Source: a virus
Length of the DNA stretch: 56,018 bases
IMG/VR virus record: IMGVR_UViG_3300049445_000092
Location: 1-56,018 of that record
Strand: one strand, 5' to 3'
This document shows, in pieces, positions 6,848 to 48,950 of the stretch. Under the pieces are notes generated by a model, which was not told where the DNA came from, did no database searches, and saw only the letters and a program-made list of their open reading frames with translations. Both the position numbers and the translations under genes were made by a program. Numbering within the stretch: position 1 is the stretch's first letter; the number at the start of each line of letters is the position of its first letter.

Positions 6848-7173
6848 AGCGTGGCGTTGGGATCGGGACAGTTGGCGGCAATGAAGCGACCGACCCGCTG
6901 GACACGCCCGGTGGTGGTGGTAAGAGCGCCGGTCGCGCTGAGATCATCGGCTGCCGCCCGAAGATCGGCCCGAATCCTGCCATCGGGAACTTCAGCAGCC
7001 AGCTCTCTGAGTCGACTCGCTTCTTCGGTAGCCGAAAGCGTGGGGCCAGAGTGGTGCGCCACCAGATCGTTGCAGAACGCCGCTGTGCTCGCCTCGGTGC
7101 CGCTAGAGCAGCTCGCCAGCGTTGTTGCTCCCAGCAGCAGCGCTCCAGACAGCACCCATTTCGCTGCTCTCAT
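6844..7173 (-). CDS. Putative lipoprotein
   Basis: A 109-residue protein with an N-terminal signal peptide (basic start, hydrophobic core LLLGATT) and a lipobox LASC with Cys22, so it should be lipid-anchored on the outer face of the host membrane. The mature part is helical, with two further Cys residues that could form a disulfide. Lipoproteins in phage early operons are often superinfection-exclusion factors; that function is inferred here. It starts at ATG in an ATGA overlap, between a HicA-like gene and a small basic protein. Confidence 0.7.
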   Translation of the reverse strand: MRAAKWVLSGALLLGATTLASCSSGTEASTAAFCNDLVAHHSGPTLSATEEASRLRELAAEVPDGRIRADLRAAADDLSATGALTTTTGRVQRVGRFIAANCPDPNATL

Positions 7174-11259: not shown

Positions 11260-11273
11260 GTCTTCTCCATGTG

Positions 11274-11325
11274 CGGGGTGTCGGGGTGACGGCGGAATCC
11301 TAGACTACCCGAGACCCCACGTCAA
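11274..11325 (-). promoter_or_regulatory. Promoter P4 (minus strand)
   Basis: On the minus strand: -35 TTGACG (11320-11325), 17-base spacer, -10 TAGGAT (11297-11302). Only one half of the spacer dyad (GACCC on the plus strand, 11313-11317) is kept. Two copies of the CACCCCG motif follow in tandem (11274-11280 and 11282-11288). Confidence 0.65.
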
Positions 11326-11332
11326 TCCGCGC

Positions 11333-11361
11333 TGGACCGGGCCGGGGCGACTGCCTAGGGT
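11333..11361 (+). promoter_or_regulatory. Divergent leaderless promoter for the Rpf-like gene
   Basis: On the plus strand: TGGACC (11333-11338), 17-base spacer, TAGGGT (11356-11361), then six bases and the ATG. Transcription would start at or within a base of the ATG, so the message is probably leaderless, common in Actinobacteria. No ribosome-binding site is present, consistent with that. Confidence 0.6.
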
Positions 11362-11367
11362 CTCCGA

Positions 11368-11931
11368 ATGGTCAAACGGCTTCCGCTCGGCCTGGCCGGG
11401 TTCGTCGTTGTCGGCACCGCTCTCGGAGCGACGCTCGCCGTCGGTGGCTCTGAGCCCCGGCCCCCGCCTCATGTAGCGGCGGCGGCGAGACCGCCACCCG
11501 TCACGACGACAGCCCCGCCGCCAACCACCACGATGCCGCCTCCTACGACGACAACCAGCAGTGTGCCACCCCCGCCACCGCCTCCGACCACCGTCCCGGC
11601 CCCGCCACCGACGGTCCCGCCCACCACAAGCCCTCCAGCGCCCCCTGTGACGGCTCCTAAGCCCCCGCCGCCGCCTCCAGCGCCCCCTGCCCCGGCTCCG
11701 GTGCAGCAGGTCTCCAGCGGGGGCTGGCAGCGGGTGGCGACGTGCGAAGAGGGCGGGCGGAACGATCCCACGTTCGGGTACTTCGGGATCATGCCGTCGA
11801 GCTGGCTGGCCTACGGCGGCGGGGCGTACAGCTCCACGGCTGGCGGGGCCTCCTGGGACGCGCAAGTGTCGGTCGGGACGCGGATCACGGGCGGCTGGAT
11901 CCCAGACCAAGGGGCCTGCGCCAGCTGGTAG
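11368..11931 (+). CDS. Rpf-like secreted transglycosylase with Pro/Thr-rich linker
   Basis: A 187-residue exported protein, one of only two convincing genes on the plus strand. Residues 1-27 form a signal peptide or membrane anchor, 28-112 a Pro/Thr-rich linker, and 118-187 a resuscitation-promoting-factor-like domain. GGWQRVATCEEGG includes the catalytic-type Glu127 right after Cys126; Cys184 can pair with it; GYFGIMPSSWLAYGG and the final GACASW match the lysozyme-like fold. Such enzymes cleave the glycan backbone of peptidoglycan. It may help entry or alter cell-wall growth, or wake dormant cells. Its own promoter and terminator isolate it, as for a horizontally gained moron gene. Confidence 0.85.
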   Translation: MVKRLPLGLAGFVVVGTALGATLAVGGSEPRPPPHVAAAARPPPVTTTAPPPTTTMPPPTTTTSSVPPPPPPPTTVPAPPPTVPPTTSPPAPPVTAPKPPPPPPAPPAPAPVQQVSSGGWQRVATCEEGGRNDPTFGYFGIMPSSWLAYGGGAYSSTAGGASWDAQVSVGTRITGGWIPDQGACASW

Positions 11932-11939
11932 ACGCGCGC

Positions 11940-11971
11940 AGCGGCCCCCGGTGTCGGATCCGGGGGCCGCT
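11940..11971. terminator. Bidirectional hairpin terminator
   Basis: A perfect 12-bp stem (11940-11951 with 11960-11971) and 8-base loop between the convergent Rpf-like gene and the P5 transcript. It is very GC-rich with no clear T-tract on either side. Confidence 0.75.
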
Positions 11972-11994
11972 GTCTTCAGTATCCGCCTACTGAG

Positions 11995-13537: not shown

Positions 13538-13885
13538 GCGCAGTCGCTGGGCGTAGTCCACGCCGTCACGTTCGACCAGCCCATCGACCTCGGCATCCCG
13601 AATGATCCGGCCCAGCCGTTGCGTGAGTGATCGGCCCCGGCTGCCAGAGGTGTTGCCGGGATGGATGGCGAACGTGCGGGCGCCGCCCTTGCGGTGCGGA
13701 TGGGCGGAGCGACCCTTGATGAGGATCACCGACGATCGGATCTGCCGCTTCGTATCGGCGCCCGCTTGCTCCGCCGCCGCGGTGAGCACCCGCATCACGT
13801 CCTGGCGTCGATGCCATTCGCCGTCCTTGAGCGCTTCCAGCAGAACGCTCCGGGGATCGAACCCCCAGTCGGGGTCAGCGCTCAT
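13520..13885 (-). CDS. Winged-helix-type hypothetical protein
   Basis: A 121-residue protein with a helical region (SVLLEALKDGEWHRRQDVMR), a GARTFAIHPG strand, and a second helix-wing (LTQRLGRIIRDAEVDGLVER), like a tandem winged-helix DNA-binding protein. It starts at ATG in a TGATG overlap behind the loader-like gene, last gene of the replication transcript. A replication or transcription accessory role is plausible. Confidence 0.6.
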   Translation of the reverse strand: MSADPDWGFDPRSVLLEALKDGEWHRRQDVMRVLTAAAEQAGADTKRQIRSSVILIKGRSAHPHRKGGARTFAIHPGNTSGSRGRSLTQRLGRIIRDAEVDGLVERDGVDYAQRLRLTGGS

Positions 13886-14538
13886 CAGAACTCGACGCAG
13901 TCGTTGCAGATCGTGAGTGGCGACGCTTCGATCATCGTGCGCCCGCACTCAGGACACCGCTTACGCCGTGGCTTGGGTGGATCGTCCAGACGGTTCAGCG
14001 ACTTCGCCAGCGGGCCGGGCTTCGCCATCGTCTTGAGCCACTCAAGCTTCTGCTTCAGCACGTCGCCCTTCAGGATCGGCCCACCCCGCCGCTCGTACTC
14101 CTCGTCGCTCAGAACCGCGCCGCCGACGTTGGGCGACTCGCCCTCGATGTAGACGGCGTCGATGTACTCACAGTCGATGAGCTGGCGTCGGCACTTGGTC
14201 GTTCCGGGGAACGGACGCTCCACGCCGCACGCGGTGCAGCGGTCGGCGGGCAGCAGCATCGAGTACCCGTCGTGCCGGATGATGCGCCAGTAATCGGGGG
14301 TCCTCTGCCTGGTCGTGTCCGGTCGGTCCTTACGGACCTCGGCCATGATGTGGCGGATCGTCGGGCGGCGGGTGTTGGCGTCCTCGCGCACCAGACGGCC
14401 CAGCGCGTTGAGAGCCTCCTTGAAGTCGACCGCCATCAGCTCGTCGTGCCAGACCTCCATCTCGGCTTCGGTGATACGGGGCGTCGGCCAGTAACCGGCG
14501 ACTCGACGCATCACGACATCGGCTTCGCCTGGGTTCAT
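13885..14538 (-). CDS. Helicase loader-like protein with zinc sites
   Basis: A 217-residue protein. The first 70 residues (YWPTPRITEAEMEVWHDELM, ... LGRLVREDANTRRPTIRHIM) resemble the helical domain of phage helicase loaders of the G40P type. Then come CTAC...C and a C-terminal CPEC...CNDC zinc ribbon. Gene order (initiator, then this) matches initiator-loader pairs in other phages, so it probably brings the host DnaB helicase to the origin. No helicase or primase gene is visible, consistent with use of the host's. ATG with GGGAGG; it also overlaps the initiator stop as ATGA. Confidence 0.6.
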   Translation of the reverse strand: MNPGEADVVMRRVAGYWPTPRITEAEMEVWHDELMAVDFKEALNALGRLVREDANTRRPTIRHIMAEVRKDRPDTTRQRTPDYWRIIRHDGYSMLLPADRCTACGVERPFPGTTKCRRQLIDCEYIDAVYIEGESPNVGGAVLSDEEYERRGGPILKGDVLKQKLEWLKTMAKPGPLAKSLNRLDDPPKPRRKRCPECGRTMIEASPLTICNDCVEF

Positions 14539-15443
14539 GGGTGCCTCCCGTTCGTTGGGGTGATCGCGGTGGACGGTAGCCCGATCATCGGGCCAATGCC
14601 GGTTCGCTGGTTGCTCTCGTAGGCGTGGAAGCTGCTGATCTTGTCGGGATCGACGTGCTGGGTCGCCATGTGGATATCGGAATCTGGGCCGAGACTGGGC
14701 CAGTACTTGACCAGATACGACGGCGTGACCGGCTTCCCCCAGCGGCCCTTCAGCCGTTCGGCCCGGATCGGCACCTCATCGGGATCGGCCCCGATGTCCC
14801 GCAGCTGCTTGGTCGCCGCGTTCAGCTGGCCGCGGGCGGACTTGGTCAGCTCATGGATGTTCATTCCGCAGGCTTCAGCGATCGCCTCGAAGAGGCGGTC
14901 CGGCGCGCGTCGAGGAGCGATGACCGTGGTGGTCGCGAAAAGTGCTGGCGCGGTAGTTATTGGTTTCTCTTTACTTCTGGTCTTCCTGGTCTTGTGGTCA
15001 GCTGAGGTGACGCTTTGGGTGACGCTTTGGGTGACGCTTTGCCCAGGTAGAGCGCTCGCGTGCGGATCCGGCAGATCGTCGGCTAAAGCGTCAGCTGAAG
15101 TGACGCTTTGATCCGGCAGAGCGTCAGCTGAAGTGACGCTTTCCACAGATGGGAACAACCTGTGGACAGTCGAGTCCCCCTTCCACCTTCCCTGGTGGAC
15201 AACCTCGATCACCCCTTTGTCTGCCAGGCTCCGCAGTACCTGGCTGACGTATGACCGAGACCCCGGATCGACCCCGATCTCCTCGGCGATCGTCTTCTGG
15301 CTCGGGAAGCAGATCCCCTTGTCGCCAGCGTGTTGCCAGAGGGTGAAGAGGACGGCTCGCTCGGCGTGGGTGATCTTCGGGTCAGCCCAGACCTCTCGCA
15401 GCTGGGCCAGCAAACGAAGGCTGGGATGGGGTCGGCCGCTCAC
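14535..15443 (-). CDS. Replication initiator with winged helix
   Basis: A 302-residue protein. Residues about 20-95 form a winged helix (THAERAVLFTLWQHAGDKG, PSQKTIAEEIGVDPGSRSYV, VLRSLADKGVIEVV) of the type found in phage initiators. Residues about 100-150 are a low-complexity linker repeating QSVTSADA, and the C-terminal part is helical with a basic stretch. The linker DNA is made of iteron repeats, and the protein should bind them, as lambda O does in its own gene. It starts at GTG overlapping a 17-residue leader ORF. The helicase loader-like gene follows. Confidence 0.7.
   Translation of the reverse strand: MSGRPHPSLRLLAQLREVWADPKITHAERAVLFTLWQHAGDKGICFPSQKTIAEEIGVDPGSRSYVSQVLRSLADKGVIEVVHQGRWKGDSTVHRLFPSVESVTSADALPDQSVTSADALADDLPDPHASALPGQSVTQSVTQSVTSADHKTRKTRSKEKPITTAPALFATTTVIAPRRAPDRLFEAIAEACGMNIHELTKSARGQLNAATKQLRDIGADPDEVPIRAERLKGRWGKPVTPSYLVKYWPSLGPDSDIHMATQHVDPDKISSFHAYESNQRTGIGPMIGLPSTAITPTNGRHP
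14952..15166. other. Candidate replication origin inside the initiator gene
   Basis: On the plus strand five copies of GTGACGCTTTG (the last ends TTTC) begin at 15007, 15019, 15031, 15100 and 15133. Two more inverted half-copies (AAAGCGTCA, 15085-15093; one mismatch near 15118) make dyads with the fourth and fifth. On one side is a T-rich stretch (14952-14985) that could unwind. On the other, a 7-bp inverted repeat TCCACAG/CTGTGGA (15142-15148, 15160-15166) makes two DnaA-box-like sites, each 7 of 9 to TTATCCACA. This is the layout of lambda-type origins. Confidence 0.65.
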
Positions 15444-15493
15444 GGCGCACCCAGGTTCTGGATTCCGGTTGGCGCTTGTGCTTGACTGCCCAT
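15440..15493 (-). CDS. 17-residue leader peptide of the initiator gene
   Basis: A short reading frame of 17 residues (MGSQAQAPTGIQNLGAP) with a TGAGG ribosome-binding site 7-8 bases before the ATG. Its stop overlaps the initiator GTG as GTGA, as nearly all real genes here do. It probably couples initiator translation to reading of the leader. No sign that the peptide itself has a function. Confidence 0.5.
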   Translation of the reverse strand: MGSQAQAPTGIQNLGAP

Positions 15494-15531
15494 TGGCACA
15501 CCTCAGATGTGCTCACGTTCACCCTTGTGGC

Positions 15532-15656
15532 GCCGGGGTCGAACTAGACGGGGGCCAGTGTGTTCAGACACTGGCCTTCGTCGCGTTCAGGCGACAGGTC
15601 ACGCAGGTCGGTCCCCAGCACGGTGCTGGCGGGCCGGTTGTCTAAGGAGCCCCGAC
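15532..15656 (-). ncRNA. Structured intergenic RNA upstream of the initiator
   Basis: A 168-base gene-free gap holds a possible multi-branched RNA on the minus strand. A 7-bp closing helix (15650-15656 with 15532-15538) needs a G-U pair that only the minus strand allows. Inside are three hairpins: a long one at about 15609-15636 (7-bp core, extended by 5-6 more pairs past one bulge and one mismatch), a 5-bp one (15580-15595) and a 9-bp one (15553-15576). The last two have the same six-base loop, CUGAAC. It could be a regulatory leader, a stable RNA or protein-binding operators. No tRNA fold fits. Confidence 0.45.
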
Positions 15657-15661
15657 TCTAC

Positions 15662-15871
15662 TCACGCCGCGGGCGGCGCGAGTGGGTCCCAGTTGAGATG
15701 GCGCGGACACAGCACCAGTCCCTCGTTGCTGATCGCCCACCCAAGGGCCATCAGCGCCCGTCTGGCGGTCACAATCGTGCGGTCGCCTCCGGTCACCGAG
15801 GTGTAGCTGGGACAGCCCACAGGAGCGATCTGAGCGTCGCAGTTGGCGATCCAGACGCGAGTCAGACTCAT
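15662..15871 (-). CDS. Small hypothetical protein
   Basis: A 69-residue protein ([20 protein letters not shown], then a helical ALMALGWAISNEGLV), with three Cys. ATG in an ATGA overlap. It lies between a membrane protein and the structured gap. No family recognised. Confidence 0.6.
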   Translation of the reverse strand: MSLTRVWIANCDAQIAPVGCPSYTSVTGGDRTIVTARRALMALGWAISNEGLVLCPRHLNWDPLAPPAA

Positions 15872-16095
15872 CGGCCGGTCCAGTCGCCACCTGCACGGTG
15901 GTACTCACGCTCGCGCAACTCGCGCTCACGCTTACTCCTGTCCAGCTTTCGGTCCCATGCGTGCGCGCAGATCACCAACGCGACCAACACGCCCGCCGTG
16001 ACCGCCATCGCGGTGACGTTACGCCAGTCGATCAGCTCGATCAGTCCGAAGACCAGCGCCAGGATGATGGCCGCGTTCAGCCGGTAGCGGTTCAA
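15868..16095 (-). CDS. Small membrane protein
   Basis: A 75-residue protein starting at TTG in a TTGA overlap with the annealing protein. Two hydrophobic helices ([15 protein letters not shown] and [17 protein letters not shown]) are followed by a very basic/acidic helical tail ([19 protein letters not shown]). It sits oddly in the recombination transcript; a role in attaching replication to the membrane is a guess. Confidence 0.6.
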
Positions 16096-17366
16096 AACGG
16101 ACAGTGGTGGTCAGGGGTGGCCGGGTTGCCGCAGTTCGGGCACTCGCCGTCCATCGCCTTCGCCGTCACTTCGATGAGCCGCATCTGCAACGTGCGCGTC
16201 TGCGCCCGCTCGTTGTACTCCACCTCGAAGGTGTCCAACGCCTTCAGCACTGCTGGGCGGTCCATGCCCATGATGTCGGCGACGATGTCGGGCGGCGGGA
16301 CCGGAACGTCGAGCGTCGCCACCACCACGGGCGGTTCCGCTTCAGGAATCACGTCGATCACGGGACCAGCTTCCTCGGCGGGAGGTTCCGGGGGCGCGAT
16401 GGCTGCGGCTTCGGCGCGCGCCTTGGCTGCCGACAGGGCCTGGGTGTAGTCCCACTCGCGGCCCAGCGCCCGCTGGATCTCGGCGTTGAGCAGGGACTGG
16501 ATCTTGCCCAGCTGCTGGCCGGTCCAGTCGCCCCAGTTCTGCCGTGCGAGCGATGGGTACTTGAGCCGGGCGATCTGCGATGCCAGCGCGGCCTTGCCCT
16601 GCTCGTCCAGGGCGCTGATGCCGACGAAGAGACCCTTCATCCCCTGAATCGACGCCGTCTTCTTGCCCTGAGCGGGGGCGATCCGGTACGTCTGCATGGG
16701 TTCGGTCGCCTCTTCGTGCGTCGGGGGCTCCTCGTAGTCCACGTCTTCGCCCCGGAATTCGCGCACCACCTGCGGCCCGGCTTGGGCCATCTCGTCAGTC
16801 GTGTAGAGCCCGCTCAGCTCCTGGGGGAATGCCCGCCGCAGGGCGAGCGCTTCGGCGACCTTTCCGATCATGAGATCGGGCATCTGCGCCCACATGCGCG
16901 CCACGCCCTTGGATGTCGTCTGGACATAGCTCGACCACCGGGCCGTCGCCACCAGCGGGATCTTGAAGTCCTTACGGAGCGCGCCAACCTTCGCCGCGAA
17001 GGGGTACTCGTTGGGGTCTTCGGGGCGCCACAGATCGGACCAGTCGCCCGTGGCGCCGATCCAGTAGGGGCCGTCCTGACCGGCGTACATCCCCGTTCGC
17101 TCCGCGATGAGGCGCAGCCCGTCGATGGATGTCTGGACGCTCATCACTTGGCGGTTCAGGCGGCTGTCGAAGCGCATGATGGCGTAGACCTGGCGGGCGA
17201 ACGGATCCAGCCCGGTGCGGTTGCAGATCCCCACAAACAGCTCCAGCTCGTCGTCGCTGGCGCCCTTGGCGATGGTCCGCTTCAGCAGGTCGATCTGGTC
17301 ATCAGAGAGCCGGTTCGTCGCCAGCTGGGCGCGGGGCTCGAATGGAATTGGGGCGTTGTCAGTCAT
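16092..17366 (-). CDS. bet: Bet/RecT-type single-strand annealing protein
   Basis: A 424-residue protein of the phage recombination protein Bet family. The family core spans about residues 20-200: [80 protein letters not shown]. Such proteins anneal complementary single strands in recombination. The rest is unlike the family: a helical part, a Pro/Glu-rich linker, and a final CPNCG...HHC zinc-like knuckle. No partner exonuclease of the RecE or Exo type is recognisable nearby. The ATG has GGAGG at good distance; longer readings cross promoter P6. Confidence 0.85.
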
Positions 17367-17381
17367 CTGGCCTCCTGGTAT

Positions 17382-17420
17382 CGGGTGTCCGAAGTCTACC
17401 CCAGACCCCTGACGCGGCAA
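17382..17420 (-). promoter_or_regulatory. Promoter P6 for the recombination/replication transcript
   Basis: On the minus strand: -35 TTGCCG (17415-17420), 16-base spacer with one GGGTC half-site (GACCC on plus, 17404-17408), -10 TAGACT (17393-17398), followed by a shorter leader motif CACCCG (17382-17387). The -35 box lies in the late-operon terminator stem. Confidence 0.5.
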
Positions 17421-17451
17421 GGCCCCCACCGAAGCGGGGACCCCTTGCCGC
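17414..17451 (-). terminator. Late-operon terminator hairpin
   Basis: A 9-bp outer stem (17414-17422 with 17443-17451) and an inner CCCC/GGGG stem, just after the last late gene in the minus direction. No T-tract follows. The stem also overlaps the -35 box of P6. Confidence 0.7.
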
Positions 17452-17504
17452 ATGTATCACCCCGATACATGGAGGTCGCGATGGCAAGCCAAGGGAAGGC
17501 GTGA
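17451..17504 (+). other. Hairpin leader copy with a 7-codon frame on the plus strand
   Basis: CATGTATC-ACCCC-GATACATG (17451-17471) is a perfect 8-bp hairpin holding the CACCCCG leader motif, followed by GGAGG and an ATG that opens a 7-codon frame (MASQGKA). Its TGA overlaps a GTG opening a further 30-codon frame that runs into the opposite late gene. It looks like a leader of the early kind, pointing the other way, perhaps a relic or a tiny antisense transcript. No promoter could be assigned. The rest of this 159-base gap holds P6 and the terminator. Confidence 0.35.
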
Positions 17505-17525: not shown

Positions 17526-19292
17526 CTACAACGGAACGGTGGCCGTCTGCACACCGACCAGGGGGGCCTTGGTCGGACCAGGAGCGGGCTTAGGGACCGT
17601 CACACTTGCGTGAGGTCGCTGGGCCACGGTCACGACGTGGAGCTGGGTGGGCAGGGCGATCGAGATCAGGATCGGCGGCACCCTGGCCGGGCCTTGCCCG
17701 GCGAAGCCCTGCCCGGCGAAGACGATGGCCCCAGTCCCGCTCGCTGCCACGCTGACCTTGGCCGTGGCTGCGCCGCCGAACGTGATCGCCCCGGATCCGC
17801 TGGCCGGGAAGACGATCTGACCCGTCCCAGCGCCGCCGAAGAGGATCGCTCCGGTGCCCGTGGCGGACAGCGTGACCTTGGCCGTGCCGCTCCCGCCCAT
17901 GACAATGGCGCCAGATCCGCTTGAGAGCACCGTCAGCGTCGCTGTGGCGGCTCCAGCGAAGGTGATGGCCCCACTCCCACTGGCGACCGTCAGGCCGCTG
18001 GCAGAGGCGAGCCCAGAGCCTGCGAAGACGATGGCCCCGGTCCCAACCCCCGTGAGGGTGACGACGGCCGTACCGGATCCCCCGAAGACGATGGCCCCCG
18101 TGCCTGTCCCCGTGAGGGTGACCGTCCCGGTGCCCGACCCAGCGAAGACGACGGCGCCTGTCCCGGTGGGGAACACAGTGACCGTCCCCGTGCCCGAGCC
18201 GCCGAAGGTGATCGCCCCGGTGCCGGTGGCCGAGGTCGTAACGACTCCGGTGCCCGTGCCGTTGAAGGTGATGGCACCCGTGCCGGTCGCAGCGAGGAAC
18301 GTCGTGGCCGTCCCTGACCCGGCGAAGGTGATGGCCCCGGTGCCGGTCGCCGTCGTTGTGACGATGGCCGTCGCGGTCCCAGCGCCGAAGAGGATCGCCC
18401 CCGTGCCCGTCGGGGTGACGGTGATCGTCGCCGTCGCGGCGGGACCACCGAAGAGGATCGCCCCCGTGCCCGTCGGGGTGACGGTGACAAGCGAGCCCAC
18501 TGGGGCGAAGGCCACGGCGAGCATGCCGCCGCCCTGCTGGCCGACAGTGGCTGAGATGCTGCTTGACCCAGCTGCTCCGAGGAAGACATCGCCCGTGCTT
18601 TCGGAGCCCGCTGTCTGGCGCAGTGTCGCCGGGGCGGTGTAGCCGAGGATCCCGGCGTTGTCGACGGCCCAAGCGAAGAGCAGGTCGTTGGGGATCGTCG
18701 TCGTCACCGTGTTGGTGAACGGATTGATCGGGGCGGTGATGAGCTGGGACTGCGACCCGTCGGTGGCGCTAAGGAATCCGGCGTACTCGTGGATGCAGAT
18801 GCGAGCGAAGGTGACCGACGACGGCCAGGTGACGGTGATGCTGTTGGCGCCGTTGGCCCCGGCGATCACCCACCAGAGCTGGATGTAGTAGCTGATGTTC
18901 GAGAGGTTGAACGGCCCGGCCGACGGGAACGACTGGCCCGTCGTGAAGCTATCGCCCAGCGTGTCGGTAATGCCGGTCAGGGCAGTCGCGCCGCCGGTCG
19001 GCCAGCCGACAGCGACGATGAGCAGATCACCGGCCTGTACCGACTGCGGGAAGGCGACGGCCTGACTGGTGACGCTACTGCCACCGCTGGCGAAGTTGTT
19101 GCCCTGGATGTAACGGCGGTCGGGAACGAAGATGCCGCCGGGGTAGAGAACAGTCGAGGCGTCCAGCGGCAGATCGACAACGCGGACGGTCCCGAGAAAG
19201 TCACTCGACGTGGGCTGCTTGTCCAGCGCGTTCGACGTATCCAGCCCGATGGGGCTGGTGTTGTCGTACCCGTCAAGCTGGTAGCCGGGCAT
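17526..19292 (-). CDS. Repeat-rich tail protein (fibre or receptor-binding candidate)
   Basis: A 588-residue protein. Residues about 60-260 form a beta-sandwich domain of a type seen in secreted and phage proteins (AGDLLIVAVGWPTGGATALT, then YYIQLWWVIAGANGANSITV). Residues about 265-535 are 13 repeats of 18-20 residues built on GAI-x-F-G/A-G-x-G-T/A, rich in Gly, Thr and Ala, likely a regular beta fibre. The C-terminus is Pro-rich. As the last gene of the late operon it probably projects from the tail tip and touches the host. The start is the ATG at 19292; the previous gene ends 11 bases upstream. Confidence 0.7.
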   Translation of the reverse strand: MPGYQLDGYDNTSPIGLDTSNALDKQPTSSDFLGTVRVVDLPLDASTVLYPGGIFVPDRRYIQGNNFASGGSSVTSQAVAFPQSVQAGDLLIVAVGWPTGGATALTGITDTLGDSFTTGQSFPSAGPFNLSNISYYIQLWWVIAGANGANSITVTWPSSVTFARICIHEYAGFLSATDGSQSQLITAPINPFTNTVTTTIPNDLLFAWAVDNAGILGYTAPATLRQTAGSESTGDVFLGAAGSSSISATVGQQGGGMLAVAFAPVGSLVTVTPTGTGAILFGGPAATATITVTPTGTGAILFGAGTATAIVTTTATGTGAITFAGSGTATTFLAATGTGAITFNGTGTGVVTTSATGTGAITFGGSGTGTVTVFPTGTGAVVFAGSGTGTVTLTGTGTGAIVFGGSGTAVVTLTGVGTGAIVFAGSGLASASGLTVASGSGAITFAGAATATLTVLSSGSGAIVMGGSGTAKVTLSATGTGAILFGGAGTGQIVFPASGSGAITFGGAATAKVSVAASGTGAIVFAGQGFAGQGPARVPPILISIALPTQLHVVTVAQRPHASVTVPKPAPGPTKAPLVGVQTATVPL

Positions 19293-20650: not shown

Positions 20651-20702
20651 CGCTGGTCAAACTAGGTGCTGCCTGTCGCGGCGTCGCTGATCCCCGGAGA
20701 CC

Positions 20703-20735
20703 AGGCGACCCCGGCAGTGTCACACCGGGGCGCCT
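20703..20735 (-). terminator. Hairpin after the lysis genes
   Basis: Stem of 11 pairs with one bulged A (20703-20714 with 20725-20735) and a 10-base loop in the 112-base gap after the holin candidate. It may end or attenuate transcription between lysis and distal tail genes, or end an mRNA after processing. The rest of the gap shows nothing else. Confidence 0.5.
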
Positions 20736-20762
20736 GTGTGGTCGTACCCAACCTGCTACACA

Positions 20763-30956: not shown

Positions 30957-31601
30957 CTAGCTGACAACCGTTCCCACCATCTGCGTGTCGAAGAAGAACG
31001 CGTACGGGTTGGCCGTCGGCGGCTTCTCCACGTTGAACTCGCAGAGCCACATCGCCTTGTTGTTGCCCCGCCTCATGATGCGCTTCACCTGGCCGATCTG
31101 GAACGCCTGCCGGATGATGATGCGGCTGAACGGGTCGCCACCAGTGGCGCCCGTCGTGGCCTTGGGCAGCGCGTCCCAGCCGATCATGACCCGGTTCTCG
31201 GTACCCGGTGTCGGCGGTTCGATCTTGACGCCGCCCGTGATGGCCGTCTGCATGGCCGTGGCCGTCGCGTTCAGGGGACCGGGCACGCCACCGTTCAGGG
31301 CGACGATGAGGTTAAAGGCGGTCGACTCGGCCAGGGTGAACGTGATCTTGGCGGTGTAGGTGTCGATGGCCGTGAAGACGGGGTACACCTCTTCCTCCAC
31401 CGTGATGTTGGAGGTGGTCGGGCCGAAGTCCATCTCGGACCCGCTGTCGGTGTAGCCGAGTGGGATCCAGCCTGGGGCCGGTGTGACCGGCCACGCCCCG
31501 GACACGCCGCTGGGCTCGGTGGTGCCAAGTGGCGCGACGTACAGCGTGCCGACGGCGACCTTGACTTGGTTGGACAGGAACGCAGCTTGTGCGGTGGGCA
31601 T
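30957..31601 (-). CDS. Major tail (tube) protein
   Basis: A 214-residue protein with the beta-rich layout of siphovirus tail tube proteins (VKVAVGTLYVAPLGTTEPSG, ... YPVFTAIDTYTAKITFTLAE). It lies directly upstream of the frameshifted chaperone, as expected for a tube protein, and should form the hexameric rings of the tube. The ATG has an AAAGGGG site. Confidence 0.75.
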   Translation of the reverse strand: MPTAQAAFLSNQVKVAVGTLYVAPLGTTEPSGVSGAWPVTPAPGWIPLGYTDSGSEMDFGPTTSNITVEEEVYPVFTAIDTYTAKITFTLAESTAFNLIVALNGGVPGPLNATATAMQTAITGGVKIEPPTPGTENRVMIGWDALPKATTGATGGDPFSRIIIRQAFQIGQVKRIMRRGNNKAMWLCEFNVEKPPTANPYAFFFDTQMVGTVVS

Positions 31602-35308: not shown

Positions 35309-35329
35309 CGCTGGTCACCCTACGCGGAG

Positions 35330-35355
35330 GGACCCCCACCCGAAGGTGAGGGTCC
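35330..35355 (-). terminator. Hairpin after the major capsid gene
   Basis: A 6-bp and a 4-bp stem separated by one mismatch, with a CGAA tetraloop, in the 93-base gap after the capsid gene. No T-tract follows. It may weaken read-through, so that capsid protein is made in excess over connectors. Confidence 0.6.
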
Positions 35356-35401
35356 GACCGCGCGGTTTGTGCTGGAGGCGGGAGCGTCCAGCCCCCGAAG
35401 A

Positions 35402-36763: not shown

Positions 36764-37702
36764 TCAGAGCGCGCGCTTGATCCCCTCGGCCAGGGTGATG
36801 AACCGCCAGGCGTCGGCGGGGTAGTAGCTGGAGATAGCGACGCCTCCAGCGCCCCAGCTGGTGACGGGCAGGCTCATGAGGCGGCGCCCCAGGTCCGACC
36901 CGTTGACCCGGAAGGCCACGCCGTCGGGCTTCGAGACCACGCAGGCGATCTGCGGCTCGTAGTCGGCAGCCGCGGCCACCATCCGGGCCAGCTGGATCAT
37001 CGTGGTGGGCACGCCCGTCCCGATGTTGATCGGGCCGTCCAGGTTCTTGCCGACAGCGGCCAGGGCGAGAGTCACGATGTCATCGACGTGGACGAAGTCG
37101 CGAACCTGGCGACCCGATCCCCACACCAAGAGCGGATCCTGGTGAGCCGTGGCCCGGTCCACGATGGCCGGGAACGGATAGTCGGCCGACTGGTCGGTGC
37201 CGTAGCCCGTGAACGGGCGCACAACCGTGACCGGCACGCCGTGCGTCCTGGCGGTCTCTGCGTGCATCTCGCCCAGCACCTTCGTCCATCCATACAGCCC
37301 GTCGGCGTTGCGGGCCGTAGCGGGCCACAGATCGGCCTCTGAGAGCTTCCTGGGCTCGGTCTGGAGGTCAACCGGGTAGGCGGCGGACGAACTCAGGTAC
37401 AGGACCCGCTCCTGGTGGGTAACGATGGCCCACTCGAACATCTGGCGGTCGATGTCCAGGTTCTCGGCCACCAGCATCGGGTTGGCCTCCCGCCGGGCGC
37501 GGTCGGGGATCACGGCGGCGCAGTGGACGACGAGATCGTAACTCGTCTGCATCTCGTGGAAGTAATCCCGGCAGTCGATGGCGTACTCGCCCGCTTCGGG
37601 ATGGCGCACGTCGATCCCGATCACGTCCCAGTCCCGCTCCTTCAGGGCCGCGGTGAAGTGCGACCCGAGGAATCCAGCAGATCCGGTGACGAGGGCCTTC
37701 AC
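36764..37702 (-). CDS. NAD-dependent sugar epimerase/dehydratase
   Basis: A 312-residue enzyme of the extended short-chain dehydrogenase family. The Rossmann motif VTGSAGFLGSHF has Gly7, Gly10 and Gly13; SSS (104-106) and Tyr137-x3-Lys141 form the catalytic set. It should convert one nucleotide sugar into another, acting with the two glycosyltransferase genes next to it. GTG start in a GTGA overlap. Last gene of a three-gene sugar cassette between the prohead protease and the major capsid gene. Confidence 0.85.
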   Translation of the reverse strand: MKALVTGSAGFLGSHFTAALKERDWDVIGIDVRHPEAGEYAIDCRDYFHEMQTSYDLVVHCAAVIPDRARREANPMLVAENLDIDRQMFEWAIVTHQERVLYLSSSAAYPVDLQTEPRKLSEADLWPATARNADGLYGWTKVLGEMHAETARTHGVPVTVVRPFTGYGTDQSADYPFPAIVDRATAHQDPLLVWGSGRQVRDFVHVDDIVTLALAAVGKNLDGPINIGTGVPTTMIQLARMVAAAADYEPQIACVVSKPDGVAFRVNGSDLGRRLMSLPVTSWGAGGVAISSYYPADAWRFITLAEGIKRAL

Positions 37703-38883
37703 GGGACCGGCTGGGCAGGCATTGGGTAGGGGAGCTTGTCGTAGAGCACGACATAGCCCTGGGGCGTCGTGACCCGCACGACGGGGGTGTAGTCGCCGTG
37801 GGCGACGATCTCCGCTTTGGCGTAGCCCCGCACGATGAGCACCCGCGCCCCGGTGTGCGAGTAAATCTCCCAGTCCGGGGAAGTGACGGGATCGAGGATG
37901 GCGACGCACGCCGGGCCGTGGATCACCGGGCCACCCAATGTGCAGGCAACGGGGACCTGGGCCGAGATCGCTCTCAGCGTGCGCGAGTTATGCCCGGAGC
38001 AGGTAAAGGGGATGCCGGGATCGCTGGTGGCCCGGAAGAGGGCGGTGACGGTATGGGCGTCCTGGTCGATGCAGGCCACGGCCTGGCAGCCCCGGTTCGC
38101 CAGCGCCACGTTCATCAGCCAGCGCTTCGCCTCGAAAGCCGATCCCATCTGCGACTCGAAGGGCTCGGCGGTCTCGGACTCCTCATCGGGATAGAGCCGC
38201 ATGTCATGACCGCGCTCTTCGATGGCCGGGATGGCGTCGGGGTAGTGCTGGCCGATGCAGTCCTTGCGGACCAGGGTCTGGTAGCCCAAGTGCTCGGCGT
38301 CGTATTGCAGGCAGGGATCGTCGCTCATGCCCAGCTCGGTGTCGTAGCGCCAGTGCAGCCGCTTCAGGAGATCCCGGTTGAGCATCACGAAGGCGGCGGT
38401 CGCCATGTGGGACTGGACGGGGAAGTCGAAGGCCAGCTTGGACGCCGGGTGGTGGGTGACCCACGGGCCGCTCAGGCAGTAGGTGGTGACCTCGCCGCCG
38501 ACGATGGGCCAGTCCACCTCCAGCAGCTTCACGATGGCGTCACCCGGTGGCTCGCAGTCCGCCGCCATGAAGAGCATGTGGGTGGCCCCGCTGTCGACGG
38601 CGTAGTCGGAGCAGAGGTTCTGGCCCATGGTGATGCGGCGCAGGCGGTTCGAGGTCTTGATCTCGGTGACCCCATCATCGAAGCGAAACTTCCAGAACTC
38701 GTCCAGTTTCGGAAGGATCGGGTCGAAGATCCCCGGACCGCGGCCGTCGTACTCCAGGGCGGCGAAGTAGCGAACCTCGGTGGGCGTCTGCTGGCGGATC
38801 TCGTCCTGGGTCCGCAGCCAGGCTTCGTAGCTGTCGGGCTGATCCATCACATATGCGGGCAGGGTGCTACAGACGCAGATCAA
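37699..38883 (-). CDS. Glycosyltransferase-like protein (GT-A type)
   Basis: A 394-residue protein. Its N-terminal part (LICVCSTLPAYVMDQPDSYE, then TSNRLRRITMGQNLCSDYAV, THMLFMAADCEPPGDAIVKL) looks like a GT-A nucleotide-sugar fold, with ADC-E near the usual DxD position. The C-terminal part (from about 265) is beta-rich and may bind the target. TTG in a TTGA overlap is chosen; an ATG twelve codons in (MDQPDSYEAW) is the other option. Likely adds sugar to virion or cell-wall glycans. Confidence 0.7.
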   Translation of the reverse strand: MICVCSTLPAYVMDQPDSYEAWLRTQDEIRQQTPTEVRYFAALEYDGRGPGIFDPILPKLDEFWKFRFDDGVTEIKTSNRLRRITMGQNLCSDYAVDSGATHMLFMAADCEPPGDAIVKLLEVDWPIVGGEVTTYCLSGPWVTHHPASKLAFDFPVQSHMATAAFVMLNRDLLKRLHWRYDTELGMSDDPCLQYDAEHLGYQTLVRKDCIGQHYPDAIPAIEERGHDMRLYPDEESETAEPFESQMGSAFEAKRWLMNVALANRGCQAVACIDQDAHTVTALFRATSDPGIPFTCSGHNSRTLRAISAQVPVACTLGGPVIHGPACVAILDPVTSPDWEIYSHTGARVLIVRGYAKAEIVAHGDYTPVVRVTTPQGYVVLYDKLPYPMPAQPVP

Positions 38884-39953
38884 GACCGCGCTCCCTTCAG
38901 CCAGGCGTTCAGCCAGCGCTCGGCGTGCTGCTCGTAAGTCAGAGATTCCATGATGGCACGGCCCTGCTCGGACATCTCGTTCCGCCGTGCTTCGTCGCTC
39001 ATCAGACCGTCCAGCTCCTTCAGCCAGCGCGCCGGGTCCTTCGCCAGGCGCCCGATCCCCATGGCGTGCAGCCGCTTGTTGTCGGGGATCGGGGACATCA
39101 CCACCGGGATCCCGAGTGATGCGAATTCCATCGCCTTCAGGCAGGACTTGGACTCGTTGAACTCGTTGAGCTGGAGTGGGACGATGCCCAGCGCGAACCG
39201 GGCCATCTTGTAGGCGTACTGGACGAACGGGATCCAGCCCCCCGTGGTCGACGGCGCGGTGGGCAGCTTCAGTGCTTCCTTCACGCCCTGGCCGTCGCCG
39301 ATCACGCTGAAGCGCCAGTCCGGGTGGCGTTCGAGCGCCCACGACACCGCGCCGCCCGTAGCCTGGAGGTCTTCGGGGTGGGTGCGCAGCGTGCCCGTCC
39401 AGCCCATCGTGGTCGGCTCTCGGCGGCTGGCGATCTTGAGGTAGTGCTCAGGCACCAGATTCGGCAGCAGAACGCCGTGGCCGAAGCCGTAGGCGTCGTA
39501 GAGGGCGGGCGTGCTGGTGGTCACCAGATCGGCCCGCTTGCACGCCTCGGTGATCCACCGGTAGTTGTTGACCCCGCTCTTGCGGTAGTAGTCGTGGGCC
39601 ACGTTCTTCATCTGGATGCGGTCGAAGCGGTCGTCCACGTCGACCACCGTGCGGATCCCCTGGCGCTGATAAAAGGGGATGACCTGGGCGATCATCTTCT
39701 GGGACGGGCGCTGGAAGACCACGACATCGGTCTCCAGGGCCGTCGAGAGCAGCCCCAGCAGGCGGACGTAGTCGGGGGCGAACGGCCGCTGTTCGGTCGG
39801 CTCCCATCTCTGGGACCAGAAACACTTCGGGCCGTCGTTGTCGATGACGACATCGGCGCCCTGATCGATCAGGCAGCCGCCCGGAATCCGCAGCCGGTAC
39901 TGACTGACGCCATCGTTGTCACCGCCCGCCGGGAAGAGGGTGACTCGGGCCAT
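38880..39953 (-). CDS. Glycosyltransferase (GT-B, family 1/4-like)
   Basis: A 357-residue protein with a GT-B-like layout: VTLFPAGGDNDGVSQYRLRI, then TVVDVDDRFDRIQMKN, a MGWTGTLRTHPEDLQATGG strand, a middle IPFVQYAYKMARFALGIVPL, and the C-terminal NESKSCLKAMEFASLGIPVV, where the E of the family's E-x7-E sits. It uses a nucleotide sugar and a still unknown acceptor. It follows the protease gene after 9 bases. Confidence 0.8.
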   Translation of the reverse strand: MARVTLFPAGGDNDGVSQYRLRIPGGCLIDQGADVVIDNDGPKCFWSQRWEPTEQRPFAPDYVRLLGLLSTALETDVVVFQRPSQKMIAQVIPFYQRQGIRTVVDVDDRFDRIQMKNVAHDYYRKSGVNNYRWITEACKRADLVTTSTPALYDAYGFGHGVLLPNLVPEHYLKIASRREPTTMGWTGTLRTHPEDLQATGGAVSWALERHPDWRFSVIGDGQGVKEALKLPTAPSTTGGWIPFVQYAYKMARFALGIVPLQLNEFNESKSCLKAMEFASLGIPVVMSPIPDNKRLHAMGIGRLAKDPARWLKELDGLMSDEARRNEMSEQGRAIMESLTYEQHAERWLNAWLKGARS

Positions 39954-41259: not shown

Positions 41260-41427
41260 TCAGTCGCCTTTGGCTGATACCGGCGGCTCCATCCCGTGGG
41301 GTGGCAGCTCAGAGCCGGGATCGAAGTCGTCGGGGAACCACCAGGGCAGCCCGTTGGGCTTCACACCCCGGTCGCTCGGCGCAGGCATCCCCTCTTCGTC
41401 ATTCGGCTCATCGGGCGGATCGGGCAT
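41260..41427 (-). CDS. Small acidic/Pro-rich hypothetical protein
   Basis: A 55-residue, Pro- and Asp-rich protein (PDPPDEPNDEEGMPAPSD). The ATG has a strong AGGAGG at 7 bases and overlaps the end of the giant gene by 20 bases. Probably disordered. Function unknown. Confidence 0.55.
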   Translation of the reverse strand: MPDPPDEPNDEEGMPAPSDRGVKPNGLPWWFPDDFDPGSELPPHGMEPPVSAKGD

Positions 41428-44400
41428 AGAAGCCTCCTGCATCCTGCTTGACGTAGACGTGGGTCATCCCGCCCACCTTCTCGATCTTCTGGATCACGAA
41501 CCGGCCTCCGGTGACGGTCTCGATCTCATGGGGAGAATTGCTGAAGTTCCCGATGTCCAGCGTAACGGTGCCCGATGGGGCGTGGAATACGGTATCGCCA
41601 CCCCAGCCGAGATCGGGGTTGGTCGTCCAGCTGTCGACCGGCATGTCGATGGTGTCGCCCGGTCCCTTCGGGGTGCCGTCAGGCCGGAAGAACATGTGCT
41701 GGTACCAGTCCTGGCCTGGCTTGCTCTGGATGAAACGGTGGACAGAACTCTTGTTCGGAATCGCCTTGGTCGATACGGCGTTGATGAACGCCCGTGCCTG
41801 CACGGCGCCGCTGCTCATGTTCGTGCCCTTCGACTGTTGCCGCCAGATCCGGCTCAGCTCGTTGACGAAGTCGTTACTGGACTTGTGGCGGTAGTAGGTC
41901 GTGAACTGCTTGATCCCGGCCAGCTCTTCGGCGTTGAACTTGTGCTTGACCTGGAGCGCGTTGGTGTTGGCGACGAACCCCGCGGCGCCCGGCTTGATCC
42001 CGGTGGTCGGCGTGTGCTTCTCCAGCGAACTCGGGCTGACCTTGACCGTGGAAATGATGCTCTTGGAACTGGACTTGGCGAAGTTGTTCTGGTCGTTGAA
42101 GTCCACCGCCGCGCGCTTGGCGCCCTGCGCCAGACCAGCGTGAGCGGCATTCCCCATGATGTCGGTGGTCTCCAGCGTCTGCGCCTTGGAGATATGGGCT
42201 TCGGCCATCGCCTGCACGTCGGGCGCTGATGCCTGATTCGTGAGCATCAGATGCATGGCCTCGTCGTAGCCCTGGCCGATGTGCTCGTTATACGCCTGCT
42301 TGGACTCCTCGGTCGCCCCGGCTGGCGTCTTGCCGTGCGGGTTCGATTCGATGCCGCCGATTACCTTGACCGTCCCGGCGTCCCCGAGGTGCGGGATCGA
42401 CTCGTTGTACTTGCCGTTGGCGAACTCGGTGAGGAACGCCGCCTTGGTCTGCATGAACGCCTGGTCGGCGGCGCTCAGGTTCTGGACCTTCGCCTGGTCC
42501 TCGTATGCCTGCTCGAACCCGTTCTTGAGACCCAGCTCATGAGATTCCCCGGTCGTGTCGACCGGCGACGCCATGTACGCCTCATGCTGGGTGCTGATCT
42601 TCGTCGCCAGCTCGTCCAAGGTCATCTTCGCCCCGGTGGCCTTGCCGTTCTGGTAGGCCGTGATGTAGGCGGTCTGGTCGTGGCTCGGCAACTCGAAGGC
42701 CGGATCCTGCTTCAGCGCTTCCCAGCCCTTCGGCAGGTTCTTGTCGATCTTGACCTCGGCGTAGGTCGGCTGGGACTTGGACGCCTGCGGATCCCACGCC
42801 CCCGCCACGGGCTTCACAATGCCCGGTAGGCCCTGGACGTAGGGATCGGAGGATGTCACCCCGCTGTAGTCGTAGGCGGGCACCATGGGGATCGGGACAC
42901 CCACTGCTTCGGCCGCCGCGACGGTCTCGGGCTTGGGCGTCACCATCTTCGGCTCAGTGGGGAGCACCTTTGCCGCCGCTGCGTACCCGTGGGCCGTGCC
43001 GTAATACTGCGCCTTCATGGCCGGGGTCTCAGCCGTCTTCGCCTTCTTGTAGCCCTGGTTCGACGCCGCCGCCTTGATGTTCTGCTTCGTCTTGCCCGCC
43101 GCGTGCATCTCCTGGCCCTGCTTGAACGCCGCTTCGTGGGCAATGAGGTAGGCGCCGCTGTTCTCAGCGAACTCCGCGGGCACCTTGGGCGCTTCGTAGT
43201 GGAACGTGGGCGTTGACGGGATCGGCGTCATAGTGACGACGTTGGACGCGGACGGTGTCACTCCCAGCTGCTTCTGCATGGTCTGGACGCCCTCGGCCCA
43301 GCCGTGGCTCTTTCCGAGAGCGAACGCCGCGGCGTAGGGCTTGACCTCGGTCGCGGCGTGTTCCTCGAACTGATGGTGGTGATGTTCGACCAGATCCTGC
43401 AAGTCGGCCAGGGTCGCCGCGTCGGCTGTCAACGAGGACACGGTCTCCAGGGCCTGCGCTTTGCCCTTGTCGTAGTTCTGTTGGATCTCGGTCAGGGAGA
43501 ATCCGGGGCCTTCGGCAGCCGCCTTGAGGTCGGACAGCTCGCGCCCACCCGTCGATGGCCCACTGGGCGTCGCCTTGCCGGATGCTTTGTCGGCGACGAG
43601 GTGCATCTGATCGGCGGTGCCCATCAGCTCCGCCGCCTTGGCGTGATTCCCGGCGGCAAACTCGGACTCGGCCGACTTCATGATCGTGTTGGCGAGGTTG
43701 TGGACGTTCTCGGAGTTGATCTCCATGGTGGGCGGGGCGACGTTGGACTTGCCCTGCGCGTAGTCCTCGGGGAACTGGTTTGGCAGTTCGACCATCGACG
43801 GGCTCGTAAAGCTGGAAGAACCGCTCGGCGCTGGTCCCATCCCTTCGGCCACCTTCTTGAACAGCGCCGTGTTCGCCGCGTCGGCTGATCCCATGGAGAA
43901 CGCCGCGCCCTGGTAGTCGCCGTCCTCGTAGTGGCCTTGGGCGGTCTCCAGGGATGCTTCCTTGGCGTTCGCCAGCTGCTGCTGGGTCTCGGTCCCGTCG
44001 ATGATGCTGTTGATGTTGTACTGACCGTGCTTGAACTGGTCCTGGTAGGCCGGGTGCGTCGACAGGATCTGCTTGGCCTCGGCGTTGAACGCTCCGGGCA
44101 TGGCGGGCTCGCCCGACAGCGCCGCGGGAGCGCCCTTCTTCTGTGCCGCCGCCGCCTTGTACCCCTCGGACTTGCCCAATGACCGCATAGCCATCCCCCA
44201 GTCGCCCTTCTGGTGGGCGCCCTGGGCTGTCTTGTACCACTGCTGACCGACTGATTCGGCCTCCTGCGAGCTGATCGTCGCCGCGTCCGCTTGGGCCGCA
44301 TCGAATCCCCCGGCGAATACGGCGCTCTGGCCGGGGTAGTGCTCGCCCATGTTCTGAACGGTCAGCTCGGACTTCGGCCCGGACGGCGCTGACACCGAGA

Positions 44401-47400
44401 CTTGCGCCGCTTCGTCGGCCTTCTGGAGGGCCATGAGATCGGCGACCTCGTGCAGCGCGGCGGCGTGGCCGTGCGCCTGCGCGGCCTGCTTGAACGACGA
44501 CTCAGTACCGAGTGCCGCGTGCTGCTCGGCTTTCGCGGTCAGATCGTCGGCGACCATGTGCGTCCCTTCGGCGGTGTATGTGGCATTGACCATGCTCTCT
44601 GCCGCTAGTGATGGGTGGTCGATCTGAGCGACGTTGTGGTAGCCCGCCAGGTAGTCCTCGGGATACGCCTTGGCGAGGTACTCAGGTCCGGGCGGGCGAC
44701 CGGGCATGGCGGGCGCTTCATGGGACGCCTTCTGCGCCGCCGCTTCGTCGGCCTGCTTCACTTCGACCTTCTGGGCCAGCTTGTGCAGAGCGTCGGCCTC
44801 ACCGATCTTCACCGCCGCGTGAGCGTGCTGACCCGCCACGAATGCGTTGTGTGCGTTCTGCTCGGCATTCGTCGCCTGTTCGTGGATGAACTGAGGGGTG
44901 ATCGCTGATCCTGGCAGCAGCTCGGTGTTCACCCCACCGAAACCCGTGGCGTACTCCTCGGGGAAGTGCTCCTTGATGTTGGTCATGGTGACCTCGGCCG
45001 CGGGCGGCGACACGCTGACCTTCTGGGCCTCACCGGAGGGGACGCCCGTCTTCCCGATCTCGTTGGCGACGGTGTAGTGCGCCTTCGCCTGACCGAAAAG
45101 CTTGGCGTGCTCGGCCAGATCACCGGATTCCTTGGCCTTCTTGGCGTTGGCGTAGAGCTTGGATCCGCGCGCCTTCACCTTCACCTTGATCTGGCCCGGT
45201 GTCAGACCGTTGGCGGCGTGGACCTCAGCCATCTTCTTCGCCGCGACCTGGCCCTCCAGGTGGCCCACTTTGAACTTCGTGTAGAGCCCACCACCTGCCT
45301 TGATGTAGGCCGACAGATCGGCGAGACCGACGGCGGCCGTACTGGGAACGGCGGCGGCGGGCGCAGGGACAGCCACAGTGGCCTCTGCGACGACGTGCGG
45401 GGGTTGCTTGGTCTCGACCTTCGGCGCTTCGACCTTGGGCGGGGTCGGCTCGCCCTTCAGCTTCGCCACGATGGCCGGGATCTGGGCCTGGCGCTCCTTC
45501 AGCACCGTCAGCCACGGGGCCGACACGCTCTCGGGGATGCCCGCTGCCTTCCAGCGCTCGGCCACCTTGTTGAGATCGAGCTTCGCCGCGGTCTCCAGGG
45601 ACGCTGCCGCTGTCGGGTCGTTCATGGAGCCGTAGAACTTCTGGCCCTGCCCGCCGTTGCGGATGGACTCGACATCGGTCCACGCCTTGCCCGGAGCGAA
45701 GGACGGCTTGGCGACGCCCGATCCTCGGAACGCCATCGCCCCGCCCTGGTCGATGCGGATGACCTTGCTGCCGTCGTCGGAGAGGGTGAGGTTCGATCCG
45801 CTGGGCCAGTCCCCGGCGAAGTCGTAGTTGCTCGTCAGGGCGTCGATCCCGAATCCCTCACGCATGATCTGCTTGTGCATGTTGCTGTCGGGATTGACCG
45901 GGTTGATGTTGCCGACGGCGTGGCTGGCGACACCGTGGATGCCGCCTGCGTTGTCAGCCTTGACGATGGTGACGTTGGGCGCCAGCGTGTGCGGCAGCAG
46001 TCCGCTGTCCGACGCCTCGTGATACACCTCGTTCGCCGCCACTTCGCTGTAGGCGTGCTCGGCTGACTTGGATTCCTTGATGAGGTAGCGGTCGCCGCTG
46101 CCCTTGTGGGTGTACCAGTTGCCGGGGTTCGATCCCGGCGACTTGGCGCCCTTCTCGTACTCGGCGCTGCTGGCCGACGGGAGATGGGTCGGCGTGTGTT
46201 CGGTGACCGGTGTGACCTCATGGGCCTTGGTGCCGTAGTTCCCGGCCTTGCTGGCGAACTCATGGAGCTTCGCCTGTTCGGCCGCGTGGGTAGTCGCCTC
46301 GGCTTCCTTCTTGGCGTCGGCGTGGATGCTGGCCCCGTGCGCCTGGGCGGCGTACTGCATGGCCTTGTGCAGGTCCCCCGCCTTCTGGGCCTCCTGCGCT
46401 AGCTCGGCGAAATGGTGGGCCGCTTCGGCTGCCTGGTGATGGGTGGCGTCAGCCTTCTCCAGGTCTTTCTCGGCCTTGTCCGCTAGTTCCTGGTACGCCT
46501 TCGGCGAGATCGGGATCCATCCGTGTTTGAAGTCAAACCGCAGCTGGAGCATGTCCTCCAACCAGGCCCGCTTGCCCTGCTGCTTCTTCTTTTTGGCGAG
46601 CAGTTGCTCCCAGTTGAGGTTGGCGTCGGGGTTCGTGTCGGCCTTGTGCGATCCGGTCCACGTCGGCTTCGGCTTCGTCGGCTTGGATGTCGTGGCCTTC
46701 GGTGGCTTGGGCGGCTTCGGATGGCCCTGCTCGGGGCTCGGCGTGGCGACGGGGTTGTGGACGACAGGCTTGACTTCGGGCGCGCTCGGGAAGTTGTGCG
46801 GCTGCGGTGGGGTCGGCGTGCCGCCCTTGTTCAGCCGGTCCATCTCGGCCACGGCGGCGTCGAGCACGTTCAGATCCCGCTGCACGCCGCCGGGGATCGT
46901 CCCCTGCTGGATCCGGTCGCGCGCCTCCTTCGGCGTGAACCACCCGACGGCGTTGGTCTCGCCGTTGGCGATCACCTTGGTGTAGTCGGGCTTCGCCCCG
47001 GCGTCCTGGCTCAGGTAGAAGTAGTTCGCACTCGATGACCCGTAGCCCGGATGGTGCCCGCCTTCGTGGGCGACGCCCTTCTTGTCTGTCCACGGTGCCT
47101 CGTCGTAGGACCCGTCGGCGTGGTGCTGGTTGCCGTGCTTGTCGACGTAAGGCTCTTGGATGTGCGGCGTCTTGAAGGCGCCCTTGAGGTGGCTGACGAT
47201 GCGGGGAACGCGCCCGGTCTCCTCCAGGGCCTCGCGCTGGGCCACGGCGACGTGGGACTCACCGGGATCGGGTCCGCCCTTGGCGAAGGTCCAGTGGTAG
47301 CCGAGGTAGTGGTTCTTCGGCTCGCGCAACAGAACGTGGGTGCCCTCCTTGTTGAAGATCACCGCTCCGTAGCGGGGGTTGTGGCCGATGGGCCATTCCC

Positions 47401-48949: not shown

Positions 48950-48950
48950 G

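Follow-up and report, generated by a model that had tools for sequence, protein, structure and literature searches.

The replication region of bacteriophage lambda contains the leftward pO promoter and the oop transcript (PMC3985674), and the lambda origin lies inside gene O. In plasmid pMV158 the initiator gene repB, which has hairpins before it, is reported to be under antisense control by RNAII (PMC4485353). Terminator function has been proposed, in mycobacteria and more widely, for hairpins lacking a U-tail (I-shaped) and for clusters of hairpins (PMC12288462, PMC8355165). Whether mycobacteria can terminate transcription without a U-tract is contested (Czyz et al. 2014, as listed in PMC12288462). 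Such hairpin terminators would be expected within 50 nt, or more loosely some 50-80 nt, after a stop codon.

We compared these systems with the gap before the replication initiator gene of IMG/VR virus record IMGVR_UViG_3300049445_000092, analysed over its full 56,018 bases (the window; GC content 66%). Like lambda, the record has a short region, putatively a control region, before an O-like, iteron-carrying initiator gene; unlike lambda, it has recT and small ORFs instead of cII upstream, and neither an opposing promoter nor a U-tailed terminator could be recognised. The likeness to pMV158 lies in the hairpins before the initiator gene, for which transcription from either strand is conceivable, whereas the antisense transcript is hypothetical here and consensus scans gave no promoter for it. 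GC-rich hairpins without a U-tract in a gap at an operon boundary are common to this locus and the U-tail-less terminators, but the main hairpin here begins 73 nt past the preceding stop codon and termination is what we infer from it. Our preferred and still tentative reading, which we hold at somewhat below an even chance, is that the gap marks the boundary at which the recT gene set meets the initiator operon, with a U-tail-less terminator or attenuator hairpin and a translationally coupled leader ORF. If so, it would be an ordinary point of expression control in the lambda-type replication module of an uncultured phage, and one more case for the debate on whether hairpins without a U-tract halt transcription in high-GC hosts.

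Gene order around the gap

According to a codon-usage gene call, practically all genes of the window lie on the minus strand, most of them overlapping their neighbours by 1-4 nt, and hardly any plus-strand units occur elsewhere in the genome. The host is likely actinobacterial, because the terminase is approximately 48% identical to its closest matches, the terminases of Streptomyces phage TurkishDelight and Actinoplanes phage phiAsp2. A search of the window for tRNA and tmRNA genes found none. The features around the gap follow one another on the minus strand in this order:

16092-17453, minus strand: recT
15868-16095, minus strand: 75-aa ORF, coupled to recT
15662-15871, minus strand: 69-aa ORF of unassigned function, coupled to the 75-aa ORF through ATGA and stopping at the gap
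15444-15661, minus strand: the gap, between the TAG of the 69-aa ORF and the GTG of the initiator, as delimited by the codon-usage gene call and the ORF list
14535-15443, minus strand: O-like replication initiator of 302 aa, matching phrog_270, phrog_391 and related families, with an N-terminal winged HTH (HTH_36)
13885-14538, minus strand: helicase-loader-like protein of 217 aa, a weak match to phrog_2289, overlapping the end of the initiator gene by 4 nt

Coding support for the 69-aa ORF was weak both in the gene call and by codon score. The gap is the longest unassigned gap of the genome and makes up 0.4% of it; the intervals 11260-11700 and 6848-7169, open in the automatic call, contain weaker ORFs. 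By codon score, none of the frames in the gap shows a clear coding signal, and alternative coding inside it was rejected on that basis. The initial annotation had described 168 gene-free bases (15494-15661) upstream of the initiator; they do precede an O-like initiator (phrog_270, phrog_391 and others), but they stop at a 17-codon ORF with its ATG at 15493.

Iterons and a probable origin inside the initiator gene

The initiator gene contains a repeat array, which is a clearer find than the hairpin of the gap:

15007-15142, within the initiator gene: iteron array of three tandem copies of GTGACGCTTT followed by two palindromes AAAGCGTCAGCTGAAGTGACGCTTT, the second with one mismatch

Next to the array is a low-GC stretch (near 14950-14990), and the two together probably form a lambda-type origin. 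The module thus combines an O-like initiator, iterons within its gene and an adjacent helicase loader, the last recognised from a weak match. With TTGTCCACA, which we take to be the actinobacterial DnaA box consensus, only 8 one-mismatch matches were found in the window, and CTGTCCACA and TTGTCCACC at 15161-15202 are one-mismatch matches that lie beside the iterons. The iteron repeats also encode SVTSADAL/SVTQ peptide repeats in the initiator protein.

Helices in the gap and their strength

The following helices were located in the gap:

15541-15588, both strands: dominant imperfect inverted repeat of 48 nt, with 21-nt arms and a 6-nt loop; 19 of 21 pairs on the plus strand, 17 of 21 on the minus strand
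15532-15538 with 15650-15656, minus strand: closing helix of the initial annotation, 7 bp on the minus and 6 bp on the plus strand
15610-15635, both strands: hairpin P2, core CCAGCAC/GTGCTGG with one bulge
15580-15595, minus strand: hairpin P3, 5 bp, loop CUGAAC
15553-15576, minus strand: hairpin P4, 9 bp, loop CUGAAC, inside the 15541-15588 repeat

All helices named in the initial annotation are present in the sequence, including the 9- and 5-bp inverted repeats that share the loop CUGAAC on the minus strand. Its multi-branch fold is also the minus-strand minimum free energy (MFE) structure in the natural context 15440-15680, with mean pair probabilities of 0.65 for the closing helix, 0.92 for the upper stem of P2, 0.38 for P3 and 0.99 for the core of P4. 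As a whole, however, the fold is only mildly better than shuffled sequence: the minus strand of the 168 nt had a z of -2.2, was equalled by 27 of 1000 shuffles and, with GC content corrected for, ranked 90 among 1330 equal windows of its own genome. The plus strand of the same 168 nt reached a z of -2.7 (6 of 1000 shuffles as good, rank 16 of 1330), and when the start region was added to the gap the minus-strand z fell to -1.1.

Nearly all of the fold signal is carried by the 15541-15588 repeat, for which z was -7.5 on the plus and -5.8 on the minus strand against its own shuffles, in a stretch chosen because it pairs. Its energy is -32.5 kcal/mol on the plus strand compared with -25.9 kcal/mol on the minus strand. 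It is the third strongest 50-nt hairpin of the plus strand of the genome; on the minus strand it falls outside the top 20 and ranks 17 of 60 among random stretches of the length of the gap. Since every shuffled whole genome holds at least one hairpin that matches its plus-strand strength, it is the position of this hairpin in the largest gap, rather than strength alone, that gives it weight. A second match, of 26 bp at 31263, falls within a coding gene and was rejected as a second copy of the hairpin.

Hairpins P3 and P4 are alternatives as much as partners, because P3 overlaps the lower stem of P4 at 15580-15588, so that only one of the two can form at a time, the P3 loop bases (GUUC on the plus strand) pair with GAAC at 15541-15544 in the long repeat, and P3 has a probability of approximately 0.4 on the minus strand and approximately 0 on the plus strand. 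The G-U pair that had been taken to point to the minus strand lost this meaning when all helices were counted, the score being tied at 3:3 (closing helix, base of P3 and inner helix, one each for the minus strand; two in P4 and one in P2 for the plus strand).

A candidate junction hairpin and a putative coupled leader ORF

The end of the gap holds two more features:

15496-15512, minus strand: hairpin with a Shine-Dalgarno-like GAGG at 15501-15504, 7 nt before the ATG at 15493
15440-15493, minus strand: 17-codon leader ORF MGSQAQAPTGIQNLGAP, starting with the ATG at 15493, read from the sequence, with a neutral codon score

The helix probability of the 15496-15512 hairpin is 0.98 on the minus strand, yet its z is only -1.0 against shuffles. 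The TGA of the leader ORF, which ends at 15440, overlaps the initiator start codon (GTG, 15443) as GTGA. Initiator translation could plausibly proceed by way of a coupled leader ORF, and the hairpins of the gap could plausibly affect initiator expression. According to the junction reading, the gap would divide the recT gene set from the operon of the replication initiator, in a phage that is unidirectional and probably actinobacterial. The 15541-15588 hairpin, together with the weaker P2, would act as a U-tail-less terminator or attenuator, possibly in both directions, and would lower read-through into the initiator operon. Translation would begin at the leader ORF, with its Shine-Dalgarno site in the small hairpin, and would be passed on to the initiator by GTGA stop-start coupling.

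This reading is favoured by the location of the largest gap at a functional boundary and by the concentration of hairpin strength mostly in one element. Comparable hairpins without U-tails soon after genes were found in the gaps 11911-11994 (13-bp stem), 35309-35401 and 20651-20762; the 13-bp perfect stem at 11939-11972 and the nested stem at 35316-35371, after the major head gene, are the strongest gap hairpins of the genome and also lack U-tails. The GC-rich stem-loop of a canonical intrinsic terminator is present in the gap, and the U-tract after the stem is absent (minus-strand tail ACCCCGGCGCCACA); a terminator scan of the gap gave no site. P2 begins approximately 27 nt past the stop of the 69-aa ORF on the minus strand. 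The distance of 73 nt between that stop and the main hairpin is long for a terminator, and the antisense strand pairs better, both of which speak against termination. A full terminator would moreover require a promoter downstream of the hairpin, in the approximately 50 nt left before the leader ORF. Consensus scans recognised no promoter on either strand of the gap region, with the limit that promoters of the host may differ from the consensus.

Relatives of the locus

A scan against Rfam with gathering and permissive thresholds assigned the gap to no family, with a single chance match from Pyrobaculum (E 4.3). Among viral contigs no relative was near enough by initiator, RecT, portal or terminase, peptide patterns of the initiator had no match in viral or genome contigs, and comparison of the initiator with 39 whole records related by terminase or RecT gave none near enough. 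Phage phiAsp2, near by its terminase, was dropped as a comparison for its different replication module. The single-sequence covariance model R1, run on 82 sources, returned the window itself and weak chance matches only. Used as DNA patterns, the P4 arms occurred in four other viral contigs, all enclosing unrelated loops; the P4 arms with their loop had no match in genomes, and the iteron gave no initiator relatives among its matches.

A recognisable distant initiator was present in 3 of 80 RecT relatives. Two of them (L092 and L115) have no gap before the initiator, and the third (L155) has a 72-nt gap before the homologous initiator, in which an unrelated 10-bp hairpin without a U-tail lies 10 nt past the recT stop; a U-tail-less hairpin in this place favours the junction reading. 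All three, like the window, have repeats or palindromes clustered midway through the initiator gene, as seen by inspection of their sequences. The annotated spacing before the O-like initiator genes of four cultured phages, which are too distant to align, ranges from an overlap to 202 nt. Judged by these comparisons, this initiator family does not conserve the structure of the gap.

Alternative explanations

The initial annotation had proposed a multi-branch 5' leader RNA, or a separate small RNA, in which the twin CUGAAC loops are bound by a protein or RNA partner and initiator synthesis is controlled. The multi-branch fold is indeed the minus-strand MFE structure in context, and the same loop on different but complementary stems resembles internal covariation. 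Identical-loop hairpin pairs (loop of at least 6 nt, within 200 nt) are expected 0.075 times per shuffled genome, and pairs whose combined stems reach at least 14 bp were absent from all 40 shuffles; besides this pair, the genome has just one other strong one, formed by the iteron palindromes within the initiator gene. We nevertheless consider such a leader RNA unlikely, given the modest energy on the minus strand, the competition of P3 with the lower P4 stem, the tied G-U polarity, the other loops carried by the P4 arms in four viral contigs, and searches that found neither relatives nor an Rfam family. A two-state, phage-specific switch in the leader RNA, in which one of the twin CUGAAC hairpins competes with the longer hairpin and so sets initiator synthesis, appears highly improbable. 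A GTTCA motif that recurs in the gap was dropped, its frequency being at chance level by our own estimate.

The greater strength of the main hairpin on the plus strand, and the rank of that strand of the 168 nt among the windows of the genome, would suit an antisense RNA that begins upstream of the initiator and owes its structure to the 15541-15588 hairpin, for which lambda oop from pO is the precedent (PMC3985674). We regard this as very doubtful: plus-strand units are few, the G-U polarity is tied, and consensus scans, from which host promoters may deviate, detected no plus-strand promoter and no oop-like arrangement of a promoter facing away from the initiator with a terminator. It is likewise quite unlikely that the repeats act as DNA, whether as operators, as a cruciform or as accessory origin sites close to the iterons. 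Such a role would suit palindromes that are nearly symmetric on either strand and an iteron array approximately 400 bp away in the initiator gene, but the arms of the palindromes differ while their centres agree, which is the reverse of dimer operators, and the gap has no iteron half-site. The operator cluster offered as an option by the initial annotation is weak, since the palindromes share centres rather than half-sites. A neutral high-GC spacer that happens to hold one long palindrome would agree with the equally strong hairpins of shuffled genomes and with the missing gap in two of the three distant relatives. We consider chance rather unlikely, in that a hairpin would seldom land in a gap of this small share of the genome, and in that gaps are so rare here that a retained one is probably useful.

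Other features of the genome

A 2519-aa protein (41408-48967), encoded between a portal-MuF fusion and a head protease-like gene, contains zeta-toxin-like kinase and NUDIX domains and resembles a polyvalent protein that may be injected with the DNA. The apparent fusion (48951-51848) is a 965-aa protein that matches portal as well as head-morphogenesis (MuF-like) families. Nucleotide-sugar epimerase-like and glycosyltransferase-like genes (36764-37909 and 38880-39953) lie within the head-gene cluster. A 588-aa protein (17526-19292) carries GTGAI(V/L)F-type repeats that derive from tandem units of approximately 60-63 bp.
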